Below, piece by piece: positions 2,385 to 62,424 of a DNA stretch of 64,000 nt. The stretch lies in NCBI RefSeq assembly GCF_003721565.1, contig NZ_RJJE01000002.1, forward strand, positions 372,001-436,000, written 5' to 3'. The stretch's first letter is position 1. Every line of letters begins with the position of its first letter. The notes under the pieces were generated by a model. It made no database searches and was not told the DNA's origin. It saw nothing but the letters and a program-made list of their open reading frames with translations. The DNA is from Rufibacter immobilis. Lineage in GTDB: Bacteria > Bacteroidota > Bacteroidia > Cytophagales > Hymenobacteraceae. The translations under genes and the position numbers were made by a program.

Positions 2385-2423
2385 GCGTTTAGCGGCTCTT
2401 TTTCTGAAAACAGGGCTAAAACG
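2385..2423. repeat. GTTTAGGGGC hairpin, copy 1 (degenerate)
   Basis: A member of the recurring hairpin family of this window, starting five bases after the tolC-like stop. The left arm is GCGTTTAGCGGCTCTTTTTC; the right arm has drifted (CAGGGCTAAAACG), so pairing is imperfect. Confidence 0.75.
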
Positions 2424-2436
2424 ACAAGCACGCATT

Positions 2437-2467
2437 TCGTCCCCCTTTGAAAGGGGAAGGGGGATGA
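2437..2467. repeat. C5/G5 repeat, first arm of an inverted pair
   Basis: A 31-base element with a CCCCCTTTGAAAGGGG core. Its reverse complement recurs at 2569-2599 with only a few differences. Similar C-run/TTTGAA/G-run elements are common intergenic repeats in Bacteroidota; that comparison is from general knowledge and was not searched. Confidence 0.75.
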
Positions 2468-2508
2468 CAAAGGCGGCTGGAGAACTGAAAAGCTTCTACT
2501 ACAGAGCC

Positions 2509-2533
2509 AGGGCAACCACAAGGGATTGCCCCT
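2509..2533. repeat. small GGGCAA/TTGCCC palindrome
   Basis: Arms AGGGCAA and TTGCCCCT surround a short spacer. It lies between the two C5/G5 repeats, so the gap is a nest of inverted repeats. Confidence 0.5.
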
Positions 2534-2568
2534 ACAAGAACCTCAGGATGATTGATCAGCATGCGAAA

Positions 2569-2599
2569 TCATCCCCCTACCCCCTTCAAAGGGGGACGA
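2569..2599. repeat. C5/G5 repeat, second arm of the inverted pair
   Basis: Near-perfect reverse complement of 2437-2467 across a 101-base spacer. Transcribed, the pair could form a long stem upstream of the ABC ATPase gene. Confidence 0.75.
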
Positions 2600-2620
2600 A
2601 GAAGTACCCAGCTAAAACTT

Positions 2621-2658
2621 GTTTTAAGCTTTTTTTGGAAAAAACAGGCGCTAAACGG
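2621..2658. repeat. GTTTAGGGGC hairpin, copy 2 (half)
   Basis: The right arm (GGAAAAAACAGGCGCTAAACGG) is recognisable; the left arm is eroded. It ends 40 bases before the ABC ATPase start. Longer reading frames that run through it give a false N-terminal extension of that gene. Confidence 0.5.
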
Positions 2659-2698
2659 AAAGAATAAATCAGCACATTCACACATCAGCATATTAACT

Positions 2699-3391
2699 AT
2701 GATACAGTTACAAGACATTGAAAAAGTCTACCGCACCAAGACCATTGAAACGGTAGCCCTCAACCGCGTGAATTTACACGTGGAACGCGGGGAGTTTGTG
2801 TCCATCATGGGTCCCTCGGGCTGCGGGAAATCTACGCTGCTTAACATCATGGGCTTGCTGGATGATCCTTCTAGTGGCCAGGTGATCATTGACGGGCAGC
2901 CGGTGAAAACGCACTCAGACAAGCAGCTGGCCAGGCTACGCAATGAAAAGATCGGGTTTGTGTTCCAGAGCTATCATCTCATCCATGACCTGAGCGTGGT
3001 GGATAATGTAGAACTGCCGCTGCTGTACCGGAACGTGAGCGCGATTGAGCGGCGCAAACGGGCGCTGGCGGCCCTGGAGAAAGTAGGCCTGAGTGCCCGC
3101 ACCAAGCACTTCCCCAGCCAGCTCAGCGGGGGGCAGCGGCAGCGGGTGGCCATTGCCCGGGCCTTGGCCGGTCAGCCGGAAATTATCCTGGCCGATGAGC
3201 CTACCGGAAACCTGGACAGTGTGATGGGCGATGAGATCATGGACATTCTGCTGCGCCTGAACCAGGAAGAAGGCACCACCATTGTGATGGTAACGCATGA
3301 CGAGAACATGGCGCTCAAGACCAACCGCCTGGTCCGTTTCTTTGACGGGCAGCAGGTAGCCGATTCCAGACTAGTAGAAGCGCAGATCTAA
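2699..3391 (+). CDS. ABC transporter ATP-binding protein (MacB/LolD type)
   Basis: A 230-residue ATPase that powers the two permeases downstream. All motifs are intact: Walker A GPSGCGKST at residues 38-46, a Q-loop, the signature LSGGQRQRVAIARAL, Walker B IILADEPTGNLDS, and the H-loop VTHD. The length and the GNLDS form fit the LolD/MacB/FtsE class, which performs mechanotransmission rather than classical transport. I chose the ATG at 2699 because the family starts as MIQLQDIEKVY; the open frame reaches back to 2552 only through repeat DNA. The first permease follows after 10 bases. Confidence 0.92.
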   Translation: MIQLQDIEKVYRTKTIETVALNRVNLHVERGEFVSIMGPSGCGKSTLLNIMGLLDDPSSGQVIIDGQPVKTHSDKQLARLRNEKIGFVFQSYHLIHDLSVVDNVELPLLYRNVSAIERRKRALAALEKVGLSARTKHFPSQLSGGQRQRVAIARALAGQPEIILADEPTGNLDSVMGDEIMDILLRLNQEEGTTIVMVTHDENMALKTNRLVRFFDGQQVADSRLVEAQI

Positions 3392-3401
3392 CGCCACGGC
3401 C

Positions 3402-4643
3402 ATGTTAAAGAATTACCTGAAAATTGCTTGGGCGGTCCTGCTGCGCCGGAAATTCTTCACCTTCATCAGCCTCTTCGGGATCAGTTTCACTTTGATGGTC
3501 TTGATGGTGGTGACTTCGCTCTTTGACCACGTATTCGGGCCGCAGATGCCGGAGCGGGAGACAGACCGGTTGCTGTTTGTGAACAATCTGCGCGAAGAAC
3601 AGGGGGAAGGATACAGCAGCAGCGGCCCGCCCAGCTATTACTTCCTGGACCGGTATGTGCGGCGCATGCAAACGCCTGAGAAAGTCTCCGTCCACTCGGT
3701 ATTCAATCCGGTGAACAGCTACATCCATAACAAGAAGCTGGCGCTGGACATCAAGCACACCGACCAGCAGTTCTGGGAGATCTTGGACTTCCACTTTCTG
3801 GAAGGAAATCCCTTTGGGGCGCAGGAAGTGAAGAACGCCAGCCGGGTGGCCGTGATCAACCAGACGACGCGCAAGAACTATTTCGGGACGGGGCCGGCCC
3901 TGGGGCAGACCATTGAGGTGGATCAGGTGAAATACCGGGTCATAGGCGTGGTGGAAGACGTGCCGGTGCTGAGAATACAATCTTACGCTGATGTCTGGGT
4001 GCCCATCACCCTCAAAAGCCAAGAATTTAAAGACACCGGCCTGCGGGGCAGTTTTTTTGCCACCATCAAAGCTCGGCAAGCGGCAGACATTCCTAAGATA
4101 AAGGAAGAATACGCCCGCATCATCCAGGACGTGACCCGTCTGAACCCCAAAGAAAAGAAGCAGGTGCACTCCTACCCAGATACCATTCTGGAAAGTTTCG
4201 CCCGTAACTTCTTAGGCAGCGGCAAAGAAGACAAAGTGGGTTTCCTGTACACTATGTTAGCGTTGGCGGCCTTTCTGTTCATGCTTTTGCCCACCATCAA
4301 CCTGGTGAACATCAACATTAGCCGCATCATGGAACGGTCTTCTGAGATTGGCGTGCGAAAGGCGTTTGGGGCTTCGTCCAATACCATCATTGGGCAATTT
4401 GTGGTGGAGAACGTTTTCCTGACGCTGCTAGGGGGCTTGTTGGGCTTTCTCCTCTCGGCGGGGGTGCTGGCGCTGATTAATGACAGCGGCATTATCATCT
4501 ACGCGCAACTGGGGTTGAATCTGCGGGTGTTCGCCTGGGGACTGCTCCTGTGCCTGGTGTTCGGGTTGATTTCCGGGGTGTACCCCGCTTTTAAAATGTC
4601 ACGTTTACACGCCGTTGAGGCACTGAGAGGAGGCTCCAAATGA
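3402..4643 (+). CDS. MacB/FtsX-type ABC transporter permease 1
   Basis: A 413-residue inner-membrane permease. One transmembrane helix near residues 15-37 is followed by a large periplasmic MacB-like core domain (about 45-285). Three C-terminal helices form the FtsX domain, which includes the conserved SSEIGVRKAFGASSNTIIG segment. With the preceding ATPase and the HlyD/TolC genes it completes a MacAB-TolC-like exporter. Its last bases overlap the next permease start by four (ATGA), which implies translational coupling and a heterodimeric permease pair. Bacteroidota often carry such paired permeases next to two-component systems; the exported substrate cannot be read from the sequence. Confidence 0.88.
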   Translation: MLKNYLKIAWAVLLRRKFFTFISLFGISFTLMVLMVVTSLFDHVFGPQMPERETDRLLFVNNLREEQGEGYSSSGPPSYYFLDRYVRRMQTPEKVSVHSVFNPVNSYIHNKKLALDIKHTDQQFWEILDFHFLEGNPFGAQEVKNASRVAVINQTTRKNYFGTGPALGQTIEVDQVKYRVIGVVEDVPVLRIQSYADVWVPITLKSQEFKDTGLRGSFFATIKARQAADIPKIKEEYARIIQDVTRLNPKEKKQVHSYPDTILESFARNFLGSGKEDKVGFLYTMLALAAFLFMLLPTINLVNINISRIMERSSEIGVRKAFGASSNTIIGQFVVENVFLTLLGGLLGFLLSAGVLALINDSGIIIYAQLGLNLRVFAWGLLLCLVFGLISGVYPAFKMSRLHAVEALRGGSK

Positions 4644-5824
4644 TACGCCATTTATTCAAACTGATCTGGAATCGGAAGAAAAGCAACTTCCTGCTCATCA
4701 CTGAAATGTTCTTCTCATTCATGGTGCTGTTCGCGGTCATCAGCTTTGTGCTCTACAACTACCATAACTATAAGAAACCGCTGGGCATTAACTACCAGAA
4801 CGTGTGGCAGCTCTCCTTTAGGTCCAACGCAGACTCCATGGGGCAGTCCAAAGCCATACAGGAGCAGATGATGCAGCGCCTCAAATCTTTCCCTGAGGTG
4901 GAGGCCGCCTCGCTGGCCCACAACAACGTGCCCTTTTCGTTCAGCAGCTGGAGCATGGGGGTTTCCTACGGAAACAAAGAATCGGTGCAAACCAATAATT
5001 ACGAGGTGCAGGATGCCTACAAAGACGTCTTCCAGTTATCGGTGGATCAGGGCCGGTGGTTCGGGCCGCAGGATGCCGCTGCGCTCCATGCCTCCGTGGT
5101 CATCAACCAGGTGTTGAAAGACCGGCTGTTTGGCGAGGAAGAAGCGCTGGGCAAACAAATCAAGGTGGATGACTCTACCAGTTATACCGTGGTGGGCGTG
5201 ATGCCCCATTACCGCGCCGACAGCGAGTTTGCCGAAGAGGAACCCGCGCTTTTCCGGCGCATCAACCTGGAGAAGGCCAAACCCGATCAGCTGTATGCGA
5301 GCCTGCTCATCAAGGTAAAACCAGGCACCGGTGTAGTTTTTGAGGAGAAAATGGTGAAAGACCTGTCGCGTATTGCCAAAGACTGGACCATAGAAGTAAC
5401 CACGCTGGAGAAAATGCGCCAAAGCAAATCAAAATTGACCTGGGTGCCCATGGTGGCCATGGGCGTGGTCTGCGGCTTCCTGATTTTCAACGTGGCGCTG
5501 GGCTTATTTGGCGTACTGTGGTACAACATCAACCGCCGCTACTCAGAGATTGGCCTGCGCCGGGCGCTGGGTGCTACTACCAGACAAATCCGGAACCAGT
5601 TTGTGGGCGAAGTGCTGGTGATGGCCACTTTCGGGCTGCTGCTAGGCCTGTTGCTGGCGGCGCAGTTCCCGCTGCTGCACGTGTTCCAGCTTTCCGCCGA
5701 GATTTACTGGCAAGGCATAGGCGCCGCCGCGCTGCTCATCTTTCTGCTGGCCATTGTCTGTGCCGTGTACCCCAGCTGGCAAGCCGCGAAAATCCATCCG
5801 GCCGTGGCGTTGCATGAAGAGTAA
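4640..5824 (+). CDS. MacB/FtsX-type ABC transporter permease 2
   Basis: A 394-residue paralogue of the preceding permease. It has an N-terminal helix (LITEMFFSFMVLFAVISFVL), a periplasmic domain, and a C-terminal FtsX domain with RYSEIGLRRALGATTRQIRN and final helices. Its start overlaps the stop of permease 1 by four bases. It is the last gene of the export operon; a full copy of the hairpin family begins about 10 bases after its stop. Both permeases keep the SEIGLRRALGA-type coupling loop that contacts the ATPase. Confidence 0.88.
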   Translation: MIRHLFKLIWNRKKSNFLLITEMFFSFMVLFAVISFVLYNYHNYKKPLGINYQNVWQLSFRSNADSMGQSKAIQEQMMQRLKSFPEVEAASLAHNNVPFSFSSWSMGVSYGNKESVQTNNYEVQDAYKDVFQLSVDQGRWFGPQDAAALHASVVINQVLKDRLFGEEEALGKQIKVDDSTSYTVVGVMPHYRADSEFAEEEPALFRRINLEKAKPDQLYASLLIKVKPGTGVVFEEKMVKDLSRIAKDWTIEVTTLEKMRQSKSKLTWVPMVAMGVVCGFLIFNVALGLFGVLWYNINRRYSEIGLRRALGATTRQIRNQFVGEVLVMATFGLLLGLLLAAQFPLLHVFQLSAEIYWQGIGAAALLIFLLAIVCAVYPSWQAAKIHPAVALHEE

Positions 5825-5833
5825 GCTGGCTTC

Positions 5834-5875
5834 TGCGTTTAGGGGCTGTTTTCAGAAAAACAGCCCCTAAACGCA
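5834..5875. repeat. GTTTAGGGGC hairpin, copy 3 (full)
   Basis: Well-paired copy: TGCGTTTAGGGGCTGTTTTC and GAAAAACAGCCCCTAAACGCA around a minimal loop, immediately after the permease operon. Confidence 0.85.
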
Positions 5876-5902
5876 AAACTTATGAGGTTTAAATAAAACC
5901 CA

Positions 5903-5926
5903 GGCGCGAGTCTCTGGACTCGTGCC
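5903..5926. repeat. GAGTCT/AGACTC palindrome, copy 1
   Basis: Sequence GGCGCGAGTCTCTGGACTCG plus TGCC. First of three related palindromes within 210 bases (also 5937 and 6089). Confidence 0.7.
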
Positions 5927-5936
5927 GACGGATGAT

Positions 5937-5955
5937 GCGAGTCTCCAGACTCGCC
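5937..5955. repeat. GAGTCT/AGACTC palindrome, copy 2
   Basis: GCGAGTCTCCAGACTCGCC, a nearly perfect palindrome ten bases after copy 1. Confidence 0.7.
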
Positions 5956-6059
5956 GGGAGCCGAGAGCTGGTGCTACATGCAGTTTCTCTATTGGATTTA
6001 TCTCTGGGCAACAGAGGGAAAGTAGCTCAGCAATGCGCCCGGTCGCTGCGGGGCAGCGA

Positions 6060-6078
6060 GGGTAGTCAGAGACTACCC
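6060..6078. repeat. GGGTAGTC-AGA-GACTACCC palindrome
   Basis: Perfect 8-base arms with a three-base loop, inside the repeat mosaic between the export operon and the regulator gene. Confidence 0.7.
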
Positions 6079-6088
6079 GTTATCCCAA

Positions 6089-6112
6089 GGCACGAGTCTG
6101 GAGACTCGCGCC
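6089..6112. repeat. GAGTCT/AGACTC palindrome, copy 3
   Basis: GGCACGAGTCTGGAGACTCG plus CGCC, the reverse-orientation relative of copy 1. Confidence 0.7.
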
Positions 6113-6163
6113 AGCTTTTTCTATTATCAAACTCAGAACTATTGACTCTGAACTCCCTTTGAC

Positions 6164-6189
6164 CTCGTAGTGTGCGCAGCTCCTACGAG
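6164..6189. repeat. CTCGTAG...CTACGAG inverted repeat
   Basis: Seven-base perfect arms around a 12-base loop. The 448-base gap 5825-6271 holds no gene; it is almost entirely these palindromes plus hairpin copies 3 and 4. Confidence 0.6.
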
Positions 6190-6202
6190 TGTCTGAACCC
6201 AT

Positions 6203-6243
6203 GCCGTTTAGCGGCTCTTTTTCTTAAAACGGCTTAAAAACGT
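6203..6243. repeat. GTTTAGGGGC hairpin, copy 4 (degenerate)
   Basis: GCCGTTTAGCGGCTCTTTTT on the left, AAAACGGCTTAAAAACG on the right; ends 28 bases before the regulator start. Confidence 0.7.
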
Positions 6244-6271
6244 TACCTTCACCTATCTGCTTTTCACGCCC

Positions 6272-7654
6272 ATGATTCTCATTATTGACGATGACGTAGC
6301 CGTGCGGGCTTCCCTGAGTTTGTTGCTCAAACAAGCCGGCTATGCCACGGCCCAGGCCGAAGGGCCCGAGGAAGCCTTGCAACTGGCTGCCCGGCAGACG
6401 CCTCAGCTGGTGCTGCTGGACATGAACTTCTCCATAGAAACCACCGGCGAAGACGGGCTGAACCTGCTGGTGCAACTGAAGCAACGCTATCCATCAGTGC
6501 CGGTGATTCTGATTACCGGCTGGGGTTCCATTAACCTGGCCGTGGAGGGCCTTAAAGGCGGCGCCGCCGATTTCATTACCAAGCCCTGGAACAACGAGCA
6601 CCTGCTGCAAAGCGTGAAAACTGCGCTAAAGCTGGCCCAGCCCCTCGCCGAAATCCCTGCCGGGAAACTCAGCCGCAAGCCGCTGGACGAGCAGTACGAT
6701 TTCTCCATGATTGTGGGCGAAGACCCCGGGCTGTTGCAGGTGCTGCGCAGCATCGGGCAAATCAGTGCCACAGATGCCTCGGTGCTCATTGAGGGCGACA
6801 GCGGCACGGGTAAGGAACTCATCGCCGAGGCGCTCCACAAGAACAGCCATCGGCGGAAGGCTCCGTTTGTGAAGGTGAACCTGGGCGGCATCTCAGCGAG
6901 CTTGTTTGAGAGCGAGATGTTCGGGCACCGCCGCGGCGCGTTCACCGATGCCAAGACAGACCGCGTGGGCCGGTTTGAGATGGCGAACAAAGGCACCATC
7001 TTCCTGGACGAGATTGGCGAACTGGACCTCAACAGCCAGGTGAAACTGCTGCGCGTGCTGCAAGATCGCACCTATGAGGTCCTCGGCGACAGCCGTTCCA
7101 AAAACCTGGACATACGGGTAGTTTGCGCCACCAATAGAAACCTGCAAGAGATGGTTTCTGAAGGGAAGTTTCGGGAGGACCTGTACTACCGCATCAACCT
7201 GATTACGGTGAAGCTGCCGGCGCTGCGGGAGCGGAATCAGGACATTCCGTTGCTGGTGCAGCATTTTGTGAACAACCTCAAGAAAACGTACCATAAACAG
7301 GAGTTGCAGGTAAGCCAAAAAGCCCTGAAATGGCTGCGCGAGCTGCCCTTGCCGGGCAACATACGGGAGCTGAAGAACCTGGTGGAGCGCACGGTGCTGG
7401 TGAGCGGCAAGAGCCTGCTGGACGTGGAGGATTTCCAGAGCCAACTGCAGGGTGGTTCCCGGAAACTGGATGAGAAACTGCTGCCATCCGTAGGAGCCAT
7501 GACCCTGGACGAACTGGAAGCCAGCATGATAAAAAAATCGATGGCTTATTACCACAACAACGTGAGCAAAGTGGCCAAGGCGCTGGGCGTGAGCCGGGGT
7601 TCGCTGTACCGAAGGCTTGAGAAGTTCAACATTCCGTATGACGCTCAAGAATAG
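6272..7654 (+). CDS. sigma-54-dependent NtrC-family response regulator
   Basis: A 460-residue activator of RpoN promoters, in the usual three parts. The receiver domain (1-120) has the acidic cluster DDD at 6-8, phosphoacceptor Asp50, Thr82 and Lys104. The AAA+ domain (about 145-375) has Walker A GDSGTGKE (175-182) and Walker B GTIFLDEIGE (241-250). A Fis-type helix-turn-helix closes the protein (VAKALGVSRGSLYRRLEKF). The sigma-54 contact loop reads GAFTDA (222-227) instead of the textbook GAFTGA. The next gene, a kinase, starts 17 bases before this stop, so the pair is translationally coupled. Its position after the exporter suggests it controls export or envelope-stress genes (inference). 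Confidence 0.93.
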   Translation: MILIIDDDVAVRASLSLLLKQAGYATAQAEGPEEALQLAARQTPQLVLLDMNFSIETTGEDGLNLLVQLKQRYPSVPVILITGWGSINLAVEGLKGGAADFITKPWNNEHLLQSVKTALKLAQPLAEIPAGKLSRKPLDEQYDFSMIVGEDPGLLQVLRSIGQISATDASVLIEGDSGTGKELIAEALHKNSHRRKAPFVKVNLGGISASLFESEMFGHRRGAFTDAKTDRVGRFEMANKGTIFLDEIGELDLNSQVKLLRVLQDRTYEVLGDSRSKNLDIRVVCATNRNLQEMVSEGKFREDLYYRINLITVKLPALRERNQDIPLLVQHFVNNLKKTYHKQELQVSQKALKWLRELPLPGNIRELKNLVERTVLVSGKSLLDVEDFQSQLQGGSRKLDEKLLPSVGAMTLDELEASMIKKSMAYYHNNVSKVAKALGVSRGSLYRRLEKFNIPYDAQE

Positions 7655-8942: not shown

Positions 8943-8955
8943 CTGCATGTATTTT

Positions 8956-8995
8956 GCGTTTAGGGGCCGTTTTTCAGAAATCAGCCTTAAAACGC
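8956..8995. repeat. GTTTAGGGGC hairpin, copy 5
   Basis: GCGTTTAGGGGCCGTTTTTC on the left and a weaker right arm (CAGCCTTAAAACGC). It lies 13 bases after the kinase stop, in a convergent gap. Confidence 0.75.
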
Positions 8996-9098: not shown

Positions 9099-9106
9099 AA
9101 GGGATG

Positions 9107-9153
9107 GTTTCTGTTTTGAGCCCGATTTAAGAAAAATAGGCTTTAAACAGAGC
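9107..9153. repeat. GTTTAGGGGC hairpin, copy 6 (diverged)
   Basis: TCTGTTTTGAGCCC on the left and AATAGGCTTTAAACAGAG on the right. Core bases have drifted but the outer CTGTTT/AAACAG pairing is kept. It ends 25 bases from the metallopeptidase stop. Confidence 0.5.
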
Positions 9154-13065: not shown

Positions 13066-13105
13066 CTGTTTTGCGCGCTTTTTCAGAAAATTAGGCGCTA
13101 AACAG
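13066..13105. repeat. GTTTAGGGGC hairpin, copy 7 (CTG/CAG-ended)
   Basis: CTGTTTTGCGCGCTTTTTC pairs in part with AATTAGGCGCTAAACAG. The outer CTGTTT/AAACAG replaces the usual GCGTTT/AAACGC on both arms, a paired change. Confidence 0.7.
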
Positions 13106-14171: not shown

Positions 14172-14192
14172 CGTTCCCGGCTTGAGGGAACG
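14172..14192. terminator. small hairpin after the MORN-like gene
   Basis: CGTTCCC and GGGAACG arms around GGCTTGA, directly in front of hairpin copy 8. No T-run follows, so termination is uncertain. Confidence 0.4.
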
Positions 14193-14248
14193 CCGAAGCC
14201 GTTTAGGGGCCGTTTTTCCAAAAACAGCCCCTAAACGGCTTCGGCGTT
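14189..14248. repeat. GTTTAGGGGC hairpin, copy 8 (extended 60-base palindrome)
   Basis: The core hairpin carries a locus-specific 12-base extension on both sides: AACGCCGAAGCC before GTTTAG and GGCTTCGGCGTT after CTAAAC, fully complementary. It lies between convergent genes. Confidence 0.9.
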
Positions 14249-17043: not shown

Positions 17044-17046
17044 TGC

Positions 17047-24973: not shown

Positions 24974-25004
24974 AAAAAGGGGGCTCTAAACAGCCTCCTT
25001 TTTT
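24974..25004 (+). terminator. rho-independent terminator after gldN
   Basis: Stem AGGGGGCT/AGCCTCCT (one G-T pair) with loop CTAAAC, preceded by an A-run and followed by a T-run, 20 bases after the gldN stop. Confidence 0.8.
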
Positions 25005-25139: not shown

Positions 25140-25189
25140 TGTTTGCGTTTAGGGGCTCTTTTTTGAAAAAGAGCCCCTAAACGCAAACA
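25140..25189. repeat. GTTTAGGGGC hairpin, copy 10 (50-base near-perfect palindrome)
   Basis: TGTTTGC GTTTAGGGGCTC arms pair with GAGCCCCTAAAC GCAAACA, with one mismatch at the T/A centre. Flank and core both differ from other copies in a paired way. It lies between the convergent gldN and uvrC, two bases from the uvrC stop. Confidence 0.92.
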
Positions 25190-31928: not shown

Positions 31929-31970
31929 GCCGTTTAGCGGCCGATTTTCAAAAAGTAGCCCCTAAACGCA
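31929..31970. repeat. GTTTAGGGGC hairpin, copy 11
   Basis: GCCGTTTAGCGGCCGATTTTC and AGCCCCTAAACGCA, in the divergent gap between the sprE-like gene and the ATP synthase operon. Confidence 0.75.
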
Positions 31971-32099: not shown

Positions 32100-32139
32100 C
32101 CGTTTAGAGCCTCTTTTTCTGAAAACAACGTAAAAACAG
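32100..32139. repeat. GTTTAGGGGC hairpin, copy 12 (diverged)
   Basis: CCGTTTAGAGCCTCTTTTTC on the left; the right arm is reduced to GAAAACAACGTAAAAACAG. It lies about 40 bases upstream of the ATP synthase promoter. Confidence 0.5.
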
Positions 32140-38131: not shown

Positions 38132-38172
38132 ACGTTTTGGGGCTCTTTTTGGAAAAACAGGCTCTAAACGCA
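38132..38172. repeat. GTTTAGGGGC hairpin, copy 13
   Basis: ACGTTTTGGGGCTCTTTTTG pairs with AAAAACAGGCTCTAAACGC. It lies 20 bases before the phosphatase start and is read as a false N-terminal peptide by the longer open frame. Confidence 0.7.
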
Positions 38173-41513: not shown

Positions 41514-41557
41514 GTGCGTTTAGGGGCTGTTTTTTCAAAAAGAGCCCCTAAACGCAC
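41514..41557. repeat. GTTTAGGGGC hairpin, copy 14 (full)
   Basis: GTGCGTTTAGGGGCTG and GAGCCCCTAAACGCAC, nearly fully paired, between the convergent UbiA-like and NAD(P)HX genes. Confidence 0.88.
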
Positions 41558-43083: not shown

Positions 43084-43122
43084 GTGCGTTTAGGGGCTGT
43101 TTTTCTGAAATTAAGCGTAAAC
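43084..43122. repeat. GTTTAGGGGC hairpin, copy 15 (half)
   Basis: GTGCGTTTAGGGGCTGTTTT intact on the left; the right arm is reduced to TTAAGCGTAAAC. It abuts the NAD(P)HX start codon. Confidence 0.65.
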
Positions 43123-43149
43123 TACCGCTATGCAATCCCTCACCAGGTG

Positions 43150-43983: not shown

Positions 43984-44035
43984 CTGTGGGCGTTTAGAGG
44001 CTCTTTTTGGAAAAACAGGCGCTAAACGCCCACAG
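43984..44035. repeat. GTTTAGGGGC hairpin, copy 16 (extended)
   Basis: CTGTGGGCGTTTAG and CTAAACGCCCACAG pair fully; the inner core (AGGCTC against CAGGCG) pairs poorly. The extension is specific to this locus. Confidence 0.85.
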
Positions 44036-44163: not shown

Positions 44164-44207
44164 GGCCGTTTAGGGGCTGTTTTTCCAAAAATAGCCCCTA
44201 AACAGCC
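44164..44207. repeat. GTTTAGGGGC hairpin, copy 17
   Basis: CCGTTTAGGGGCTGTTTTTC with AAAATAGCCCCTAAACAG. Together with copy 16 it fills the divergent 378-base gap before the thioredoxin-NHL gene; no other gene is visible there. Confidence 0.85.
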
Positions 44208-45797: not shown

Positions 45798-45838
45798 GTG
45801 CGTTTAGGGGCTGTTTTTCCTGAATTGAGGTCAAAAAA
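45798..45838. repeat. GTTTAGGGGC hairpin, copy 18 (half)
   Basis: GTGCGTTTAGGGGCTGTTTT intact; right arm lost. It lies in the tandem gap after the thioredoxin-NHL gene. Confidence 0.65.
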
Positions 45839-45932
45839 GGCATGAGAACTAATGTTAGCTTTTTTCGCTTCTCTATAGGAGGAAGATACCACTAATGATG
45901 TTTCTTTCCTGTATTTTTAAAGGCTATAGAAT

Positions 45933-46934: not shown

Positions 46935-46984
46935 AAAGCCGTTTAGAGCCTGTTTTTCGAAAAACGGCCTCTAAACGGCTTTTT
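46935..46984. repeat. GTTTAGGGGC hairpin, copy 19 (TAGAG/CTCTA variant)
   Basis: AAAGCCGTTTAGAGCC and GGCCTCTAAACGGCTTT. The usual TAGGG/CCCTA is replaced on both arms by TAGAG/CTCTA, a compensated change. The T-run that follows could serve as a terminator for the serine dehydratase. Confidence 0.88.
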
Positions 46985-47736: not shown

Positions 47737-48933
47737 TCAGTAGTTGGGGATGTCTTTTACGTCATTGCGGGTGAGCAGCAGGCCCAGCATCATGAGCAGG
47801 CTGGAGAGCAGCACCACAAAGAAGAGCACACTTTCATTCATGCCCACAATGTCATACCGCGCCGGAATGCTGTAAAAGAGCAGAATGGTAATGAGGCCGC
47901 GCGGGGCAATGAACAGCTCCGGAATAAGAGGGACGCGCGCCACGTACTGCAGGTACAGGTAACGCACCAGCAGAATAATGCTGAAGATGGTGAAGCCCAA
48001 CACCCAGACATCCAGCTGGTAAAGCTCCTGCAGGTTAATAGAAAACCCGAACAGCAGGAAGAAGAACGTCCTGATCACGAAGGCACTTTCGCCGTTAATC
48101 TGCTTCAGCTGCACAATCTCAGACTGTAAAGAGGTTAAGCTGATGAACTTGCCCAGCCGGTCTTTGATAAACAGCGCCGCATTGTTGAGCATGAGCCCGA
48201 AACAGAGCACCATGAGCAGCGAAGACAGGTGCAGTTTCTTGCCCACCGCGTACAGCAGAATGAGAATGGCAATAATGAGGAAGAACTTGATGTGGCTCCT
48301 GATCTTGTCCACGAAGAACAGCAGAATAAGGCAGCAGACAATGGAGATGAGGAAAATGCTGACCAGATCAACCGCCAGCGTCACAAAGGAGCCAATGCCC
48401 ACCGTCTCATTCTGCACCGCAAAGTTGAAAGCGATAATGCCAATAATATCTGAGAAGGTAGCCTCGTAGACAATAAACTCCTTCTTCTCCGGCGTGAGGT
48501 TAGACACACTGGGAATGGCAATGGCGCTACTGATTACGGCCAACGGAATGGCGTTCACAAGGGCCACATTGTACGGCACATGTAGCCAGAAATTCACGAA
48601 CCAGCCAATAAGACCGGCGGTAATGAGCAGCGTTAGCGTGGCCGTGAGCAAAGTCTTCCTGATAAGGGGCAGCTTTTCGCGTTTCAGTTCCAGGTCCAGC
48701 GTACCCTCCAGTACAATCAGGATCAACCCAATAATCCCGAACAGTTCCAGAATATTGCGCAGGCCGGGCAAGGTTACGTTGAAGTACTTGGCTAGTAGTT
48801 GCAGCAGGATTCCGGTGGTAAGCAGCAAGATCACTGAGGGAATCTTTGACCGTTTGGCCACTACATCAAACAGGTATGAAAGGATGATGAGGCTGCTGAG
48901 GATAATGAGAAAGGTATAGGCATCTAAGATCAT
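47737..48933 (-). CDS. cation:proton antiporter (CPA family)
   Basis: A 398-residue polytopic membrane protein, about 12 helices, of the sodium/proton exchanger domain family. Recognisable stretches are LLTTGILLQLLAKYFNV, GLILIVLEGTLDLELKRE, LAVISSAIAIPSV and EATFSDIIGIIAFNF, the last placing the ion-binding Asp. No C-terminal TrkA/RCK domain is present, so it is a short-form antiporter. The ion (sodium or potassium) is unknown. It is transcribed alone toward the small secreted protein. Confidence 0.88.
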   Translation of the reverse strand: MILDAYTFLIILSSLIILSYLFDVVAKRSKIPSVILLLTTGILLQLLAKYFNVTLPGLRNILELFGIIGLILIVLEGTLDLELKREKLPLIRKTLLTATLTLLITAGLIGWFVNFWLHVPYNVALVNAIPLAVISSAIAIPSVSNLTPEKKEFIVYEATFSDIIGIIAFNFAVQNETVGIGSFVTLAVDLVSIFLISIVCCLILLFFVDKIRSHIKFFLIIAILILLYAVGKKLHLSSLLMVLCFGLMLNNAALFIKDRLGKFISLTSLQSEIVQLKQINGESAFVIRTFFFLLFGFSINLQELYQLDVWVLGFTIFSIILLVRYLYLQYVARVPLIPELFIAPRGLITILLFYSIPARYDIVGMNESVLFFVVLLSSLLMMLGLLLTRNDVKDIPNY

Positions 48934-49973: not shown

Positions 49974-50021
49974 AATTGCGTTTAGGGGCTCTTTTTCCCA
50001 AAAGAGCCCCTAAACGCAATT
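49974..50021. repeat. GTTTAGGGGC hairpin, copy 20 (full)
   Basis: AATTGCGTTTAGGGGCTC and GAGCCCCTAAACGCAATT, perfectly paired. Its right end overlaps the stop codon of the convergent glycerophosphodiesterase gene. Confidence 0.92.
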
Positions 50022-51461: not shown

Positions 51462-52040
51462 TTTATAGGTCGGTTTTTGTCAATTCTACAACGAAAATTA
51501 TCTCTTTTTAGAGATGTGCTAAGTTACGAAAAAATATATTATTAAATTATTATTTTATATGTAGATTTAATGGCTTAATGATAAGTATTATATAAAAATA
51601 TTAACATATTTGTAAACGATTTCAATGCCAACCGATTTCATAGCGGCACAGGAGCTAATTTACTGGCCGTAACGCTCAGTTGCAACAGCTTCTGGCCCAG
51701 GCTGCGTGAAAGCGCCTTCGCCCATTGGTATGGCTTGCAGGTTCTGCTAAAGTTGTTTTACATAGATTTCAGAAGTAAGATAGTGCATTTTTTACGGGTG
51801 AGTATTCCATTAAGTTCGTACGGCTGCCTCTTGGGCAGGGAAGAAGTAGTCTGCACGTGTCTTGCCCCACTTTTTAGTCCAAGCCGTTTAGGGGCGCTTT
51901 TTTCAAAAATAGCCCCTAAACGTTTTTCATTTAAACATATCCTCCCCAATATTGGGACGCCGTTCCTGGTGGGGCGGTTCAACGGAAATTCAGAAGCCTG
52001 GCAGAGGCAGTTTGCCAGGCATAGTTAAACCCTTCTTCCA
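51462..52040. other. long divergent intergenic region (Lrp / serine genes)
   Basis: No gene visible. The half next to the regulator is very AT-rich (51530-51620). It includes a small palindrome ATCTCTTTTTAGAGAT near 51500 and TAATTTTC on the minus strand as a possible -7 element for the regulator. The middle is GC-balanced without clear motifs. Hairpin copy 21 sits at 51884. Confidence 0.5.
51884..51923. repeat. GTTTAGGGGC hairpin, copy 21
   Basis: GCCGTTTAGGGGCGCTTTTT and AATAGCCCCTAAACG, well paired in the core, in the divergent gap 118 bases before the fusion gene. Confidence 0.85.
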
Positions 52041-53967: not shown

Positions 53968-54017
53968 AGAACCTGTTTTGGGCCCGTTTTTATGAAAATA
54001 GGCTTAAAACAGGTTCT
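53968..54017. repeat. GTTTAGGGGC hairpin, copy 22 (CTG/CAG-ended, extended)
   Basis: AGAACCTGTTTT and AAAACAGGTTCT form a perfect outer stem; the inner core (GGGCCCG against ATAGGC) is degenerate. It separates the serine fusion gene from the aminotransferase. Confidence 0.8.
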
Positions 54018-56973: not shown

Positions 56974-57172
56974 GTGTGTTCTCCTGTATAGGTGAGAAAG
57001 CTCTATTTGATCAATCTACAGATAAATAGAGTTTCCGCAAAATTAACGAACCTTTGGTGCAAATAGGCATGGTGCATGCAAACGCAGGCCAAGATTAAAG
57101 CTTGGCCTGCACGCTTTTCCTCTTTGAACAGGCTCTTTTATGCACTTCTAACGGAAAACAGGCCGGCACTGT

Positions 57173-57212
57173 GCGTTTAGAGGGTCTTTTTCTGAAAACA
57201 GGGCCAAAACAG
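57173..57212. repeat. GTTTAGGGGC hairpin, copy 23 (diverged)
   Basis: GCGTTTAGAGGGTCTTTTTC with GAAAACAGGGCCAAAACAG. An even weaker relative may precede it (57125-57165). The 256-base gap holds no gene. Confidence 0.55.
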
Positions 57213-57228
57213 CTTTGCGTAAAAGTGG

Positions 57229-58449
57229 TTATTTCTGGGCTTCCAGCCTAGTGAGAAGGTTTTTGGCCTCGCTAGAGTCTTTGTTCTGCTGTGCCGCCAC
57301 GGTAACGGCTTCTTTGGCTGTTTGCAGGGCTAGGGCCTTGTTGCCGGTCTTTTGCAGGAGTTGCGCATACAGATATAGGTTCCCGTAGTTTCTATGTAAG
57401 GTAATCACCTGCTGTATGATCTGCGTGCCAAGGGTGAGGGCTTCTTTGTCCTCGGCAAAGGCATTCAGGTACGCGGCGCTTTCATACAAGGTGCGCCAGT
57501 CATTCCCCGCCAGGGCTTGGCTGTACTGTAAAGTCGCTTTTGCGTAAGGAAGCCAGTCTTGGCGCCCGGCATAAAAGTAAATAGTAGCCAGCGCCGATAG
57601 TCTGCTGGTGTCTTTGAAATGGGCCGCAATGGCTTGCTTTACCTCCTTTAGGAGAAGTACGTCATTTTCTGCCCCGGCGCGTTGGGCGGTGTTCGTGATG
57701 ATCCGATTCGCTTTATGTGCCACTTCTTCTTCCTTGAACAAAGGGGAGAACTGGCGCTGGTGCTGAAGAAAATACTTGGTGGATGGGGAGTGGAAACCCA
57801 GGTATTTGGAGAAGAGGTAGCGTACGTTTTCTTCAGAGGTTAACTGTTGCGGGGTTTGGGTGGCCAGGTACTCAGAGACTACGGTTTCCTCTGGACTATT
57901 GGCTTGGCGAACCTGACCTAAGGCATTGCTGTAGTGGAAGAGCAAGGAAGGAGATCGGTCGCCGTTATCATATTTCCTTTTGAGCGAAAACAGCGCCTTG
58001 TTAGGATTGAAGGCGTTCTTGCCGTCTAAGATAAACTCTTCGGCGGATTTGCCGCCGCCGCTTTGGTGCAGCGGTTTTGCGTCTTTGTCAAAGTATAGAT
58101 AGGTAGGGAAACCGGTAATGGCGTACTTCTTCGCCAGGGCCTCGCCTTCGGCATCATCTTCTATGTTGATCTTGTAGTTTACAAACGTAGCGTTGTAGAA
58201 GCGGGCCACTTCCTCCGTAGGAAAAACATCTTTTTCCATTTTCTTGCAAAACTGGCAACCTGGCGCTGACACATAGAGGAAAACGGCTTTCCGCTCTTGC
58301 TTGGCCTTGGCAAGTACCTTCTCCTATGAGGAGGAAGCAAGAAAGGCAATGCCTGCCTTCTGCTGCGCTTTCACCTGAAACAGACCACAGATGAGCAGAA
58401 GAAATACTATGCTAATTCCTGAATAGATTCTTTTATAAAATTTAAACAT
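57229..58449 (-). pseudogene. thioredoxin-fold protein gene with one in-frame TAG
   Basis: The frame runs unbroken from ATG 58449 to the stop at 57229 except for a TAG at 58324-58326 (codon 42). Before it are a signal peptide (IVFLLLICGLFQVKAQ) and KAGIAFLASSS. After it EKVLAKAKQERKAVFLYVSAPGCQFCKKM continues without a shift, with CQFC redox motif and FPTYLYF, then helical repeats. Family relatives read SWEKVLAKAK here, so TGG to TAG is the likely change. The next possible start (GTG 58272) lacks the export signal and part of the fold. Confidence 0.85.
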
Positions 58450-58574
58450 GCTTTAAGCTATAGATTGCCACTGCTCTATAGTAAGCTGCAATGGCGGTGG
58501 TTATTGTTTACTGTCTTTTTGGTTAAGATACAGAAAATCTTCTAAATCAGGATTGTGCGGGAGAAAAAGCCTAA

Positions 58575-58620
58575 ACTAAACAAAAAAGGAGAGGCTACGG
58601 CCTCTCCTTTTTTGTTTAGT
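58575..58620. terminator. bidirectional terminator, perfect 21-base arms
   Basis: ACTAAACAAAAAAGGAGAGG and its reverse complement around TACG. It ends the M28 peptidase unit on the minus strand. It is followed by short AGTCCTGAGT direct repeats (58621-58683) with CTCAGAACTCAGGACT inverted. Confidence 0.88.
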
Positions 58621-58683
58621 AGTCCTGAGTCTAGAGTCCTGAGTCAAGAGTTGTTTTTAACTCAGCACTCAGAACTCAGGACT
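58621..58683. repeat. AGTCCTGAGT / ACTCAGGACT repeats
   Basis: Two direct copies of a CCTGAGT segment then CTCAGCACTCAGAACTCAGG in inverted form, so a long imperfect hairpin is possible. Fills the gap between terminator and M28 stop. Confidence 0.55.
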
Positions 58684-58697
58684 GAAATAAGCGGAGC

Positions 58698-60353
58698 TTA
58701 TTTCTTATTGCTGTCTACCTTGATGCGCTCTGTGCGGTTGGCTAGTTCCCAGGCGGTGTAGAACACCAGGCGGGTAACTTTCTCAGCAGACGGGAAGTTT
58801 ATTTTCTCCACGTCATCGGTAGGTTGGTGGTAGTCTTCGTGCACGCCGTTGAAGTAGAACGCGATTGGAATGTTGTGCTTCGCGAAGTTGTAGTGGTCTG
58901 AACGGTAGTAGAAACGGTTAGGGTCGTTGGGGTCGTTGAAGGTGTAGTCCAGATCCAGGTTGGTGTAGGTCTTGTTCGCGGTCTCAGAGATGGCGTGCAG
59001 CTCAGAAGAAAGCTTGTCAGAACCAATCACGTAGATGTAATCAGGCTTGCCTTCGTGCTCCTTGTCATGACGCCCGATCATGTCAATGTTCAGGTCAGCC
59101 ACGGTGTTCTCCAGCGGGAAAATAGGATGATCTGTGTAGTATTCAGAGCCTAACAGGCCTTTTTCCTCGCCGGTTACGGTCAGGAACAGGATGCTGCGGC
59201 GCGGGCCGTGTCCATTTTTCTTGGCTTGGGCAAAGGCCTGGGCCAGCTCCAATACGGCTACCGTGCCGGAACCATCGTCATTGGCGCCATTGTACACCAC
59301 GCCGTTCTGGATGCCTTCGTGGTCATAGTGCGCACTGATCACAATCAGTTGGTCTTTCAGGTCAGTGCCCTCAATGTAGCCCATCACGTTCTCAGTGGGC
59401 AGCGGCTGCTTGTTGCGCGCGGCCTTGATTTTAACGTTGGTAGCCGCTTTGTAAGGCGATGCCACCGCTTTGCCCGCTTTGGCTACAGACGCACCATAAG
59501 CAGCAAACTGCTCGGGCTTGGTGTTCAACAGCGCTGCCGCCATGGACGGCGACACGTAAATGTTAGCTGCTCTGGGCTGGGCGGCAGTGGTGCCAAACCC
59601 AATAGAAGGACGGCTTAACATGCCGGCGTAGCGGGCAGTCATTTTCTGGAACTCGGCATCAGAGGTACCCATCACCACTAACACGCTTTTGGCGCCTTTT
59701 TTAGTAGCGGCGGCGGCTTTGGTGCGGGCATCCTGTGACCAGGTGCTCATTTTGTCTGTGCCGCTGATGAGGTACTTGCCATCGGCTTTCTTAGGTTCCC
59801 CGGCCAATACTACCACGGCTTTGCCGGTTACGTCCAGGTTGGTGTAGTCTGAGTAAGCGGGATCGTCAATGCCGTAGCCGGCAAATACCACCTGGGTGGT
59901 TTCCTCATTCTGGTACGGCGAGGCACCCAGCACGAAAAAGTCTTTGCCCATGGTGAATTTCTTGGAACCCACGGTCACGTAGCCTTCGCCCCAGCTGCTT
60001 TTCTCCAGGTCAAATGTCTGGTAGTAAGGGTTGGAGCCGGTTTTCACCGGGCCGGGAACGCCATTGGCTTTGAAGTGATTGGCAATGTATTCGGCGGCCA
60101 TTTTCTGGCCGCGTGCGCCGGTCTCACGTCCTTCCAAGGAATCTGAGGCCAGAACGCGCAGGTATTTCTCCAGATCTGCGGCGGTAATGGTGTTGGCGTA
60201 TTGGGTGGGGTTGCCGGCGTTTGCCCCGGCAGTGGCGGGAGTGCCGCTACCCGTGGAAGCTCCGCCCGCGTTGGAGGCCGAAGGCGTTTGGGACGTTGAG
60301 CAAGCCGACAGGAAAGCGGCGGCCAAGCCCAGCGTGTAAAGGTGCTTTTTCAT
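58698..60353 (-). CDS. M28 family zinc metallopeptidase, lipoprotein
   Basis: A 551-residue envelope aminopeptidase-like enzyme. A lipobox FLSAC (Cys about 18) is followed by a Ser/Gly/Ala-rich linker, the peptidase start (YLRVLASDSLEGRETGARG) and a PA-type insert (about 165-300). The zinc ligands are ISAHYDHEG (His), NGANDDGSG (Asp), GEEKGLLGSE (Glu), NIDMIGRHD (Asp) and HEDYHQPTDD (His). All five positions are present, so it should be active. The substrate is probably peptides in the periplasm or outside. Confidence 0.92.
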   Translation of the reverse strand: MKKHLYTLGLAAAFLSACSTSQTPSASNAGGASTGSGTPATAGANAGNPTQYANTITAADLEKYLRVLASDSLEGRETGARGQKMAAEYIANHFKANGVPGPVKTGSNPYYQTFDLEKSSWGEGYVTVGSKKFTMGKDFFVLGASPYQNEETTQVVFAGYGIDDPAYSDYTNLDVTGKAVVVLAGEPKKADGKYLISGTDKMSTWSQDARTKAAAATKKGAKSVLVVMGTSDAEFQKMTARYAGMLSRPSIGFGTTAAQPRAANIYVSPSMAAALLNTKPEQFAAYGASVAKAGKAVASPYKAATNVKIKAARNKQPLPTENVMGYIEGTDLKDQLIVISAHYDHEGIQNGVVYNGANDDGSGTVAVLELAQAFAQAKKNGHGPRRSILFLTVTGEEKGLLGSEYYTDHPIFPLENTVADLNIDMIGRHDKEHEGKPDYIYVIGSDKLSSELHAISETANKTYTNLDLDYTFNDPNDPNRFYYRSDHYNFAKHNIPIAFYFNGVHEDYHQPTDDVEKINFPSAEKVTRLVFYTAWELANRTERIKVDSNKK

Positions 60354-60423
60354 GAAAATGGTTTGTTGTTCAGTATGAGACGTTAATGCTAGCTAATTTT
60401 GGCCTAACTAACAAATGATAGCT

Positions 60424-60461
60424 GTTTTTGCCCTCTTTTTGGAAAAAGAGCCGCTAAACGC
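60424..60461. repeat. GTTTAGGGGC hairpin, copy 24 (half)
   Basis: The inner CTCTTTTTGGAAAAAGAG stem is perfect and the right arm CCGCTAAACGC is kept; the left outer arm is lost. It sits just after the ispF stop. Confidence 0.65.
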
Positions 60462-60472
60462 AAAAGCTTAGC

Positions 60473-60964
60473 TTAAGCGGTTGGCCGGTAGATGAGCACG
60501 GTGGCAAATGCCGCCACGCCCTCCTTCTTGCCCACAAAACCCAGGTGCTCCGTGGTGGTGGCTTTGATGGAGATTTCTTCCTCAGAGATGCCCATTACTT
60601 CGGCCAGGCAGGTTTTCATGGCCGGGATGTGCGGGTTTACTTTGGGTTCCTGCAGGCAGATGGTGCTGTCAATATTGCCCACTTTGTAGCCTTTGCCGCG
60701 CAGGAGTTCTAGGACCGCGCGCAGCAGGATCTTGCTGTCTATACCCTTGTACTTAGGGTCTTTGTCTGAGAAATGGAACCCGATGTCGCGCAGGTTGGCC
60801 GCGCCCAGCAGGGCGTCACAGATCACGTGGATGAGCACGTCTGCGTCTGAGTGGCCCAATGCACCGTGGGTATGGGGAATTTTGATGCCGCCCAGCCAGA
60901 AATCCAATCCTTCCTGCAACTGGTGCACGTCATAGCCGAAGCCGGTTCTTATGTGTAAACTCAT
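60473..60964 (-). CDS. ispF: 2-C-methyl-D-erythritol 2,4-cyclodiphosphate synthase
   Basis: A 163-residue IspF of the non-mevalonate isoprenoid pathway. Signatures are GFGYDVHQL (Asp and His zinc ligands), LGHSDADVLIHVICDALLGAANLRDIG, and the C-terminal KATTTEHLGFVGKKEGVAAFA. The length is normal. It is flanked by hairpin copies on both sides, so it probably forms a unit of its own or is read with the M16 gene weakly. Confidence 0.96.
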   Translation of the reverse strand: MSLHIRTGFGYDVHQLQEGLDFWLGGIKIPHTHGALGHSDADVLIHVICDALLGAANLRDIGFHFSDKDPKYKGIDSKILLRAVLELLRGKGYKVGNIDSTICLQEPKVNPHIPAMKTCLAEVMGISEEEISIKATTTEHLGFVGKKEGVAAFATVLIYRPTA

Positions 60965-60974
60965 AGGTGAGGGT

Positions 60975-61014
60975 GTGTTTAGGGGCCAATTTCGGAAAAA
61001 CGGCCCCTAAACGC
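60975..61014. repeat. GTTTAGGGGC hairpin, copy 25 (full)
   Basis: GTGTTTAGGGGCC and GGCCCCTAAACGC, inner CC/GG instead of CT/AG on both arms. It ends within the stop codon of the M16 peptidase gene. Confidence 0.85.
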
Positions 61015-62297
61015 TATTCTTCTTCTAAAACTTCTTCCAGTTCCTCCTGCGCCTCGTTGCCGGGGGCTGCCTTGTAGAACAGCGTGGAGCAATTGTCTGG
61101 CCGAAGGATCTCCTGGGCTTGGCGGTAAATGTCTTCTGAGGTGACGGCCTGTACCAGCGCCCCTTCTTCGTTCACGTGGTTGGGGTTGCCCATCAGTTTC
61201 CCGAAGGCCAGGTTCATGGCCCGGTTCAGGAGTTCTATCTCTGAGAAGACAATGGAGGTCTCGGCCTGGTTTTTCACTTTCTGGAGTTCTTCCTCACTGA
61301 TGTGCTCCGCGCGGATTTTCTCCACAATGGCCTCCACGGCGGCGTTGGCCACCTGTATGTCTACGCCGGTGTTCAGCTTGCCCTGGATGACCAGCAGGCC
61401 CGGTTCCATGGAGCCGGTCGCAAACGCCGAGATGGAGTTGAACAGCTTCTGCTCTTTCACCAGCTCATGGTGCAGTCTGGAGGAATCGCCGCGGCCCAGC
61501 ACATCGGCCAGTAAATCCCCGGCGTAATACTCTGGGCTGGTGCGGCCGGGCATGTGGTAAGCTTTGTACAACGCAGACAGGGGCACCGGTGCTTCCACCT
61601 CCTGAAAACGCGCCTGGGTCTGGCGGGGCTCCGCGGGCAGATTGCGCTCATATTTCACCCCGCCGGGGATGGGCCCGAACCATTTCTGGGTAAGTTCCTG
61701 GGCGCGCTCAAAAGTGATATTGCCGGCGATGACCAGAATGGCGTTGGCCGGGGAGTAGTGTTTCTTGAAGAAAGCCCGCACATCATCCATCACTGCGTTT
61801 TCAATGTGACTTACTTCTTTGCCAATGGTAGCCCATTTGTAGGGGTGTACATGGTAGGCCAGCGGCCGGAGCTTGAGCCAGACATCGCCGTAGGGCTGGT
61901 TCAGGTAATTCTGCTTGAACTCCTCTACCACCACTTTGCGCTGTACCTCCAGCCCGTTTTCACTGAACGCCAGATCCAGCATGCGGTCAGACTCCAGCCA
62001 AAATCCCGTTTCAATGTTCTGGGCGGGCACCGTGAGGTAGTAGTTGGTGAGGTCAGGTGAGGTGAAAGCGTTATTCTCGCCACCGGCCTGCTGCAGGGGC
62101 GCGTCATAGTTGGGGATGTTCACGGAGCCGCTGAACATGAGGTGTTCAAACAGGTGGGCAAACCCGGTATGTTGTTCGTCTTCATCGCGTGAGCCAACGT
62201 TGTAGAGCACGTTCAGGACCGCCAGGGGCGTAGTAGGGTCTTCGTGCACCAGGCAGCGCAGGCCGTTCTCCAGCGTGAATTCTTTGTAGTGGATCAT
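61014..62297 (-). CDS. M16 family zinc peptidase
   Basis: A 427-residue pitrilysin/processing-peptidase-like protein. The inverted zinc motif GFAHLFEHLMFSGS (HLFEH) with the distal Glu in VVEEFKQNYLNQPYG is intact. The C-terminal half has the paired non-catalytic domain. Length fits one-half M16B enzymes that act as dimers. I start at the ATG 62297 (MIHYKEFTLENGL); the TTG at 62306 is also in frame. No signal peptide is visible, so it is probably cytosolic. Confidence 0.9.
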   Translation of the reverse strand: MIHYKEFTLENGLRCLVHEDPTTPLAVLNVLYNVGSRDEDEQHTGFAHLFEHLMFSGSVNIPNYDAPLQQAGGENNAFTSPDLTNYYLTVPAQNIETGFWLESDRMLDLAFSENGLEVQRKVVVEEFKQNYLNQPYGDVWLKLRPLAYHVHPYKWATIGKEVSHIENAVMDDVRAFFKKHYSPANAILVIAGNITFERAQELTQKWFGPIPGGVKYERNLPAEPRQTQARFQEVEAPVPLSALYKAYHMPGRTSPEYYAGDLLADVLGRGDSSRLHHELVKEQKLFNSISAFATGSMEPGLLVIQGKLNTGVDIQVANAAVEAIVEKIRAEHISEEELQKVKNQAETSIVFSEIELLNRAMNLAFGKLMGNPNHVNEEGALVQAVTSEDIYRQAQEILRPDNCSTLFYKAAPGNEAQEELEEVLEEE

Positions 62298-62384
62298 AGG
62301 TAACAATAAGTGAGACTGCTCTTTGTAGAGCGTGGTATTCTAACGCGGCCGGGCAAGCGGTGTTACAGTCTGCCGGTGGCGTTT

Positions 62385-62424
62385 CCGTTTAGGGGCTCTT
62401 TTTTAGAAAACAGCCCCTAAACGG
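62385..62424. repeat. GTTTAGGGGC hairpin, copy 26 (full)
   Basis: CCGTTTAGGGGCTC and CAGCCCCTAAACGG, in the divergent gap between the M16 peptidase and the E1 dehydrogenase. Confidence 0.88.

Follow-up and report, generated by a model that had tools for sequence, protein, structure and literature searches.

The stretch of DNA analyzed here comprises 64,000 nucleotides of the Rufibacter immobilis genome (assembly GCF_003721565.1, contig NZ_RJJE01000002.1, positions 372,001 to 436,000; hereafter the window, with coordinates counted from its first letter). Its intergenic regions carry many copies of a palindromic hairpin belonging to a family found throughout the genome. Members of this family mostly lie near stop codons, are vertically conserved at one gene end, show pairing that is bound to gene context, and come close to mutual exclusion with ordinary terminators in short convergent gaps. 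Genes were called with a custom caller, for which starts are approximate and some genes were missed, and which was later improved.

Hairpin copies in the window

An earlier note, made from the letters of the window alone, had described about 26 copies of this hairpin, with compensatory changes between the arms. The number held: a scan for the arms returned 26 sites, 25 of them intergenic, and the site at 48661, located inside a gene, was discounted as a copy. A covariance model matched 22 distinct places in the window (E <= 0.006), and no window match above the gathering threshold was found in Rfam. The predicted RNA folds of three good copies ranged from -31 to -38 kcal/mol. The copies are listed below, where "both searches" refers to the arm scan and the covariance model, and copies without a sign have no assigned strand.

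2387..2422 (+): asymmetric copy, 7 nt past a plus-strand gene; both searches
2619..2656 (-): asymmetric copy; both searches
5837..5872: symmetric copy with a perfect stem, 12 nt past a stop codon; both searches, RNA fold
6206..6243 (+): asymmetric degenerate copy; arm scan, weak in the covariance model (E 0.51)
8958..8993 (+): asymmetric copy in a convergent region; both searches
9111..9148 (-): asymmetric copy in the same convergent region as the 8958 copy; both searches
13066..13103 (-): asymmetric copy; both searches
14189..14248: symmetric convergent copy whose paired flank is long and specific to this copy (29-nt arms); both searches
25140..25189: symmetric copy with a perfect 24-bp stem, between the 3' ends of gldN and uvrC; RNA fold
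31932..31967: copy in a divergent region; both searches
32102..32139 (+): asymmetric copy in a divergent region; both searches
38134..38169: symmetric imperfect copy; both searches
41514..41557: symmetric copy in an 84-bp gap between convergent genes, with no other hairpin listed there; arm scan, RNA fold
43088..43125 (+): asymmetric copy without a stable fold; arm scan, RNA fold, weak in the covariance model (E 0.05)
43984..44035: symmetric copy with an 8-bp paired flank, region called divergent; both searches
44164..44207: symmetric copy, region called divergent; both searches
45802..45839 (+): asymmetric degenerate copy; arm scan, no covariance-model match listed
46935..46982: symmetric copy, convergent, with a TAGAG/CTCTA pair; both searches
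49974..50021: symmetric copy with a perfect stem, in a 74-bp gap between convergent genes; both searches
51885..51922: symmetric imperfect copy, region called divergent; both searches
53968..54017: copy after a 2-hydroxyacid dehydrogenase (serA-like) gene, with flanks AGAACCTG/CAGGTTCT
57175..57210: imperfect copy; both searches
60424..60459 (-): asymmetric copy; both searches
60977..61012: copy adjoining the stop codon of an M16 peptidase gene, with an ortholog in 16 of 16 species
62385..62424: symmetric copy, region called divergent; both searches

Form and abundance in the genome

The core of the hairpin is a mirror-image palindrome with the layout GTTT(9)TTT(4)AAA(9)AAAC. Copies were chosen solely by the GTTT and TTT anchors of the two arms, which left pairing at other positions unselected. 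Among them the core measured 36 nt in 224 of 241 from R. immobilis and in 135 of 136 from a related species (G012), although the centre could span 0 to 8 nt (total 32-40). The strict form, GTTTAGGGGC..GCCCCTAAAC, was found 528 times in the 4.77-Mb genome and its reversed control pattern not once, which places the family far above chance. A 424-kb sample contained 206 sites (195 outside called genes and 11 inside), from which a genome total of about 2,200 can be estimated by scaling; only 3 of the 241 anchored copies were located inside genes.

In the asymmetric form (65 copies) one arm reads (S)CGTTTAGSGGCTSTTTTTC, and the partner keeps GAA-like and AAAC-like ends and differs between them. The polarity of these copies showed no relation to transcription (32 same, 28 opposite). 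It matched the local GC skew in 55 of 85 copies (Fisher p = 0.003), and a whole-genome pattern search gave agreement for 48 of 76 asymmetric copies in stretches of known skew, a tally made by hand that omits 11 of 87 copies (skew unknown or changing) and overlaps the 85-copy set. On the largest negative-skew contig (C1), agreement amounted to only 13 of 28. The agreement may reflect the replication strand or mere composition.

Arm covariation and gene context

The outer ends and inner pairs cited in the earlier note are readable at their places in the window, but they are chosen examples. Counter-examples occur among the same copies, since the arms read GGGGCTG/GAGCCCC at 41514 and GGGGCTC/CAGCCCC at 62385, and TAGAG faces CGCTA at 43984. 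Covariation was measured on the 241 anchored copies, drawn from 824 kb of the genome, or on the 238 left after removing the three inside genes. Positions 0-3 and 13-15 are fixed by anchor selection and hence uninformative, and expected values came from within-genome shuffling, in which descent between copies is not modelled. A hairpin screen of relatives selects for pairing, and its covariation was therefore left unused.

Matches at the outer ends exceeded chance, with position -2 paired in 152 of 241 copies (98 expected) and position -4 in 142 of 241 (84 expected). The inner example GGGGCTC versus GGGGCTG (position 11) fared differently: it was paired in 100 of 241 copies against 100.3 expected, so that the arm match there is no better than chance. 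Over the 238 copies, the flank (positions -10 to -1) was paired in 1168 of 2380 cases against 792 expected, the lower core (positions 4-6) in 515 of 714 against 483, and the upper core (positions 7-12) in 993 of 1428 against 969, a value reached by 29 of 2000 shuffles. The corresponding values for 134 copies of G012 were 633 of 1340 (556 expected), 338 of 402 (315) and 616 of 804 (618). The claim of compensatory change was thus half right: the ten outer bases pair far above chance, and the upper core hardly covaries.

Flank pairing differed with the direction of the neighbouring genes. In R. immobilis it reached 364 of 550 for convergent copies (201 expected), 680 of 1490 for co-directional copies (491) and 96 of 280 for divergent copies (89), and in G012 it reached 259 of 500 (211.5), 316 of 690 (285) and 36 of 110 (42), respectively. 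Even the upper core showed some covariation in convergent copies of R. immobilis (262 of 330 vs. 246 expected, reached by 1 of 2000 shuffles) and none in divergent ones (108 of 168 vs. 115.5). Copies were also densest between convergent genes, with 55 anchored copies in approximately 22.6 kb of convergent intergenic DNA, 149 in approximately 89.7 kb of co-directional and 28 in approximately 29.1 kb of divergent. Family hairpins were present in 44 of 83 convergent (30-1000 bp), 82 of 234 co-directional and 6 of 65 divergent regions (60-400 bp) of R. immobilis, and in 37 of 52, 47 of 119 and 4 of 36 of those of G012. The median distance was 36 nt from the upstream stop codon in co-directional regions and 25 nt from the nearest stop codon in convergent ones.

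Two causes of arm matching had been proposed in the earlier note, selection on pairing and a copying process in which one arm is rewritten to match its partner. Rewriting at the DNA level should ignore gene direction; the dependence on direction therefore argues for selection at transcript ends. Within the genome, this selection is seen in the outer stem and lower core of convergent and co-directional copies and not in divergent ones. Arm-to-arm copying, by template switching at quasi-palindromes, would explain why some copies are perfect far past the core. As the main cause it is contradicted by the scant within-copy correlation of the upper core, through which such copying would have to run, and by the lack of any in divergent regions (28 copies), where the flanks are uncorrelated too, and we consider it highly improbable.

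Orthologous gene ends across species

A covariance model (R1) was built on an alignment (A1) of 66 copies from many species; these copies were picked for pairing, and alignment and model served only to find copies. All 16 species have a family hairpin at the end of the M16 peptidase gene (window 61014), starting 1-14 nt away from the stop codon as counted from its first base; it is weak in G004 and G008, and R1 matches this end in all 16 at E <= 0.05. Its presence at the same gene end in every species indicates that it is old and vertically inherited there. In the alignment of this site, 9 of 17 pairs had changed on both sides, with 26 double-changed cells against 7.8 in shuffles, and the signal vanished when the partner was slid. 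Covariation at this site also withstood a tree-based null, a comparison of the kind suggested in the earlier note: 135 paired cells were observed over ten doubly variable pairs, whereas the null averaged 97.8 (sd 5.7) and never exceeded 111 in 300 runs. The species tree for this null was obtained with FastTree from four proteins, and simulated columns were held to the observed parsimony changes, with the observed letters assigned by rank. The pair formed by columns 6 and 33, with six or more changes on either side, is paired in 16 of 16 species.

In most species (by eye), the uvrC end has a hairpin no more than about 25 nt from the stop codon, and the yjeF and serA-like ends carry one in many species, not all. 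The outer flank AACCTG/CAGGTT of the serA-like-end hairpin (53968-54017) recurs in G002, G008 and G011; an old flank can thus persist around a core that is altered. Taken together, the dependence on context and the double changes at the M16 gene end indicate that pairing is selected at transcript 3' ends, and that arm-to-arm copying is not the main cause.

Ordinary terminators and the folded strand

Among 56 convergent gaps of 30-150 bp in R. immobilis, 23 contained only a family hairpin and 17 only an ordinary hairpin with an A/T tract; both types were present in 3 and absent from 13 (Fisher p = 0.0006). In short convergent gaps the family hairpin fills the niche of ordinary terminators. In convergent gaps of 150-1000 bp, both types stood together in 7 of 27 cases in R. 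immobilis and in 14 of 31 in G012. Insertion into old terminator hairpins is disfavoured as an origin, because the left flank of the family is T-rich at positions -5 to -3, not A-rich.

The reading that we prefer, with moderate confidence, is that the family is a genus-specific, bidirectional 3'-end hairpin without a U-tract. The palindrome would form a hairpin at transcript 3' ends and would stop or trim transcripts, above all between convergent genes, where it would replace an ordinary terminator. RNA rather than DNA would be the folded strand, the effect would be termination or 3'-end protection, and the spelling of the core would be held by a second, sequence-level constraint, be it the binding of a protein or ongoing copying from site to site.

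Several observations weigh against this reading. No U-tract follows the stem, the T fraction over 12 nt being 0.29 in 125 copies of R. immobilis and 0.30 in 53 of G012, and the hairpin is therefore not a canonical intrinsic terminator. The exclusion in the 56 short gaps was scored under a loose sorting rule, by which a single family-type arm suffices; it was not significant in G012 (21 regions: 7, 6, 4, 4; p = 0.39) or in the co-directional gaps of R. immobilis (p = 0.16), and the gldN-uvrC gap contains a family hairpin plus an ordinary terminator. Two of the five window copies that were folded are weak, 28 of the 241 anchored copies lie in divergent regions, and one window copy called divergent, at 43984, is exceptional in having a paired flank of 8 bp. 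On the sense strand, G-U pairs were not clearly spared relative to A-C: well-paired co-directional lower stems of R. immobilis held 35 G-U and 27 A-C (58 and 53 expected by shuffling), and well-paired co-directional copies of G012 held 22 and 14 (28 and 20 expected), both types being depleted with no significant difference. The loop, most commonly TCCA/TGGA (88 of 224 in R. immobilis), is conserved in spelling yet strand-neutral (29 vs. 26 on the sense strand).

A constraint symmetric between the strands is suggested by the neutral loop and by the fact that G-U pairs are not spared, and the dependence on context points to transcripts. At the M16 site, 13 G-U against 7 A-C cells give a small lean towards RNA. 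The candidates are an RNA that pairs in either direction of transcription or, at the ends of transcripts, a cruciform in the DNA or a bound site.

In the last case the element would be a 36-bp DNA palindrome recognized by a dimeric protein, whose specificity the spelling of each species would follow, like the bacterial interspersed mosaic elements (BIMEs) of E. coli, which bind gyrase and are sited at transcript ends. Such a site agrees with a core length fixed at 36 nt though 32-40 was allowed, with upper-core letters that are nearly independent between arms, as in half-sites, and with loop letters conserved without strand preference. It leaves the copy-specific pairing of the ten outer bases unexplained, and protein candidates were sought among Y1 transposases only; we regard it as unlikely.

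A canonical A/T-tract hairpin was observed directly past gldN (window 24974-25003). It occupies the corresponding position in the 15 other species examined (L067-L081), unlike the family hairpin beside uvrC, which changes fast.

Spread across the genus and dialects of the core

The search of related genomes proposed in the earlier note was run with the covariance model, and the hairpin was found in all 14 genomes drawn from the same genus and in one of 46 from other genera of the family. R1 gave between 80 and at least 108 matches (both strands counted) in each of the former; among the latter, 45 gave none and one gave two. Of the 59 genomes in the relatives search, 13 had the strict spelling. 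All 13 are among the 16 genomes of the same genus, and the 12 other than R. immobilis carried 1 to 33 copies each; the reversed control gave a single match in each of G005 and G036. Among the matches listed in named records, five of six loci belonged to Rufibacter and one to Sabulibacter ruber. These distributions are best read as those of a genus-specific extragenic palindrome resembling repetitive extragenic palindromic (REP) elements. No description of this repeat was found when the open-access literature was searched for palindromic repeats in Rufibacter and Hymenobacter, a scope outside which most subscription papers and bioRxiv preprints fall, and a word search of the main text of a 2025 REP survey (PMC12306157) found neither genus named.

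The consensus core reads GTTTAGGGGCTGTTTT in R. immobilis, GTTTTCGGGCTCATTT in G012, GTTTTTGGCCTGTTTT in G006 and GTTTTGGGCCTGTTTT in G005. In nine species with at least nine anchored copies (seven with fewer were excluded), a leave-one-out profile picked the own species for 197 of 241 copies of R. immobilis, 133 of 136 of G012, 21 of 21 of G006 and 23 of 28 of G005, and for 11-27% of those of G004, G008, G014, G010 and G011 (9 to 27 copies each). Small samples give poor profiles, yet G006, with 21 copies, scored 21. Homogeneous dialects thus characterize four of the nine tested species, and the other five have mixed copies. The letters of the G012 dialect were present at its uvrC, yjeF and M16 ends, its serA-like end having no hairpin near the stop codon, which indicates that old sites were respelled. 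The genome-wide spelling of G006 was absent from its M16-end copy, so homogenisation is incomplete.

These patterns bear on a selfish origin, in which a REP-like palindrome would have spread into intergenic DNA by transposition or conversion and gene-end pairing would be a later side use. High copy number and near-absence from genes would be expected of such an element, as would homogeneous cores in four of nine species and the own dialect of G012 at three of the four orthologous sites examined, namely those with a near-stop hairpin. The same gene end is nevertheless occupied in 16 of 16 species, where the element is old and vertical, and no dedicated transposase was found; a selfish origin is fairly unlikely as the main explanation. 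As for a mover, Y1 transposase was rejected: R. immobilis has one such gene, and copies show no visible enrichment around such genes. Copies stood on both sides of 5 of 20 Y1 loci, counted by hand, against 67 of 242 ordinary R. immobilis genes, a rough comparison given that the methods differ, and G006 has abundant copies yet no PF01797 match.

Comparison with known systems

Functions attributed to REP-like repeats include termination, mRNA protection and topology (PMC3733652). With REP elements and BIMEs associated with REP-associated tyrosine transposases (RAYTs; PMC2817692, PMC3733652), the family shares a palindrome of 20-40 bp, high copy number (above the 100 extragenic palindromic copies used to define RAYT-linked REPs), extragenic location and species-specific classes. 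It differs in its fixed 36-nt core, in being kept at an orthologous gene end across the genus, and in the head, as neither GTAG nor GTGG appears in the position profile of the 65 asymmetric copies. Palindromic repeats tagged with CGTC, reported in Bacteroidetes among others and said to be without a dedicated transposase (PMC3733652), are likewise short hairpins, and the family resembles them in its CGT start and in the CCAG-like end of many asymmetric copies. The unpaired CGTC tag is absent, however: the asymmetric profile reads CGTT, with T instead of C as fourth letter in 65 of 65 copies, and the outer bases pair.

Neisserial DNA uptake sequences also form inverted pairs at terminators and gene ends, with dialects differing between species (PMC3630211). 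Unlike these, the arm word GTTTAGGGGC is rare inside genes (5 of 282), and on this ground an uptake sequence was rejected; it is paired in 252 of 277 intergenic occurrences, and the asymmetric-arm word GTTTAGCGGC in 41 of 83. Intrinsic terminators of Bacillus cereus evolve by compensatory changes, with G-U as the most frequent intermediate (PMC5381666). The family is similar in its double switches and in a stem, at presumed transcript 3' ends, kept by selection through compensatory changes; it differs in the lack of a U-tract and of clear G-U sparing, and in its repeated core.

Two further short repeats were noted in the window. The first, CTAGACTCAGGACT, occurs at 5907, 11342, 58621, 58635 and 58670. 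With as many as 3 mismatches allowed it has 47 matches in 824 kb from R. immobilis, and others in relatives, counted with no shuffled control. The second, GGCAACCACAAGGGATTGCCCCTAC, has one copy, at 2511, the only one in 824 kb of this genome, against 6 in 120 kb of G010.

Implications

Returning to the preferred reading of a 3'-end hairpin, a broader picture is conceivable, if rather improbable at present: a two-layer, genome-wide 3'-end code, in which an outer stem selected for pairing would be joined to a 36-bp core respelled to the species dialect, at most sites and in some species, by a co-evolving sequence-specific protein with hundreds to thousands of sites. Within a single family, gene context reveals that pairing is selected where transcripts end, not where they begin, and the spelling of the core is seemingly governed apart. 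The question of function or parasite for REP-like repeats thereby becomes directly testable, and the species dialects offer a route to the factor that sets the spelling of the core.

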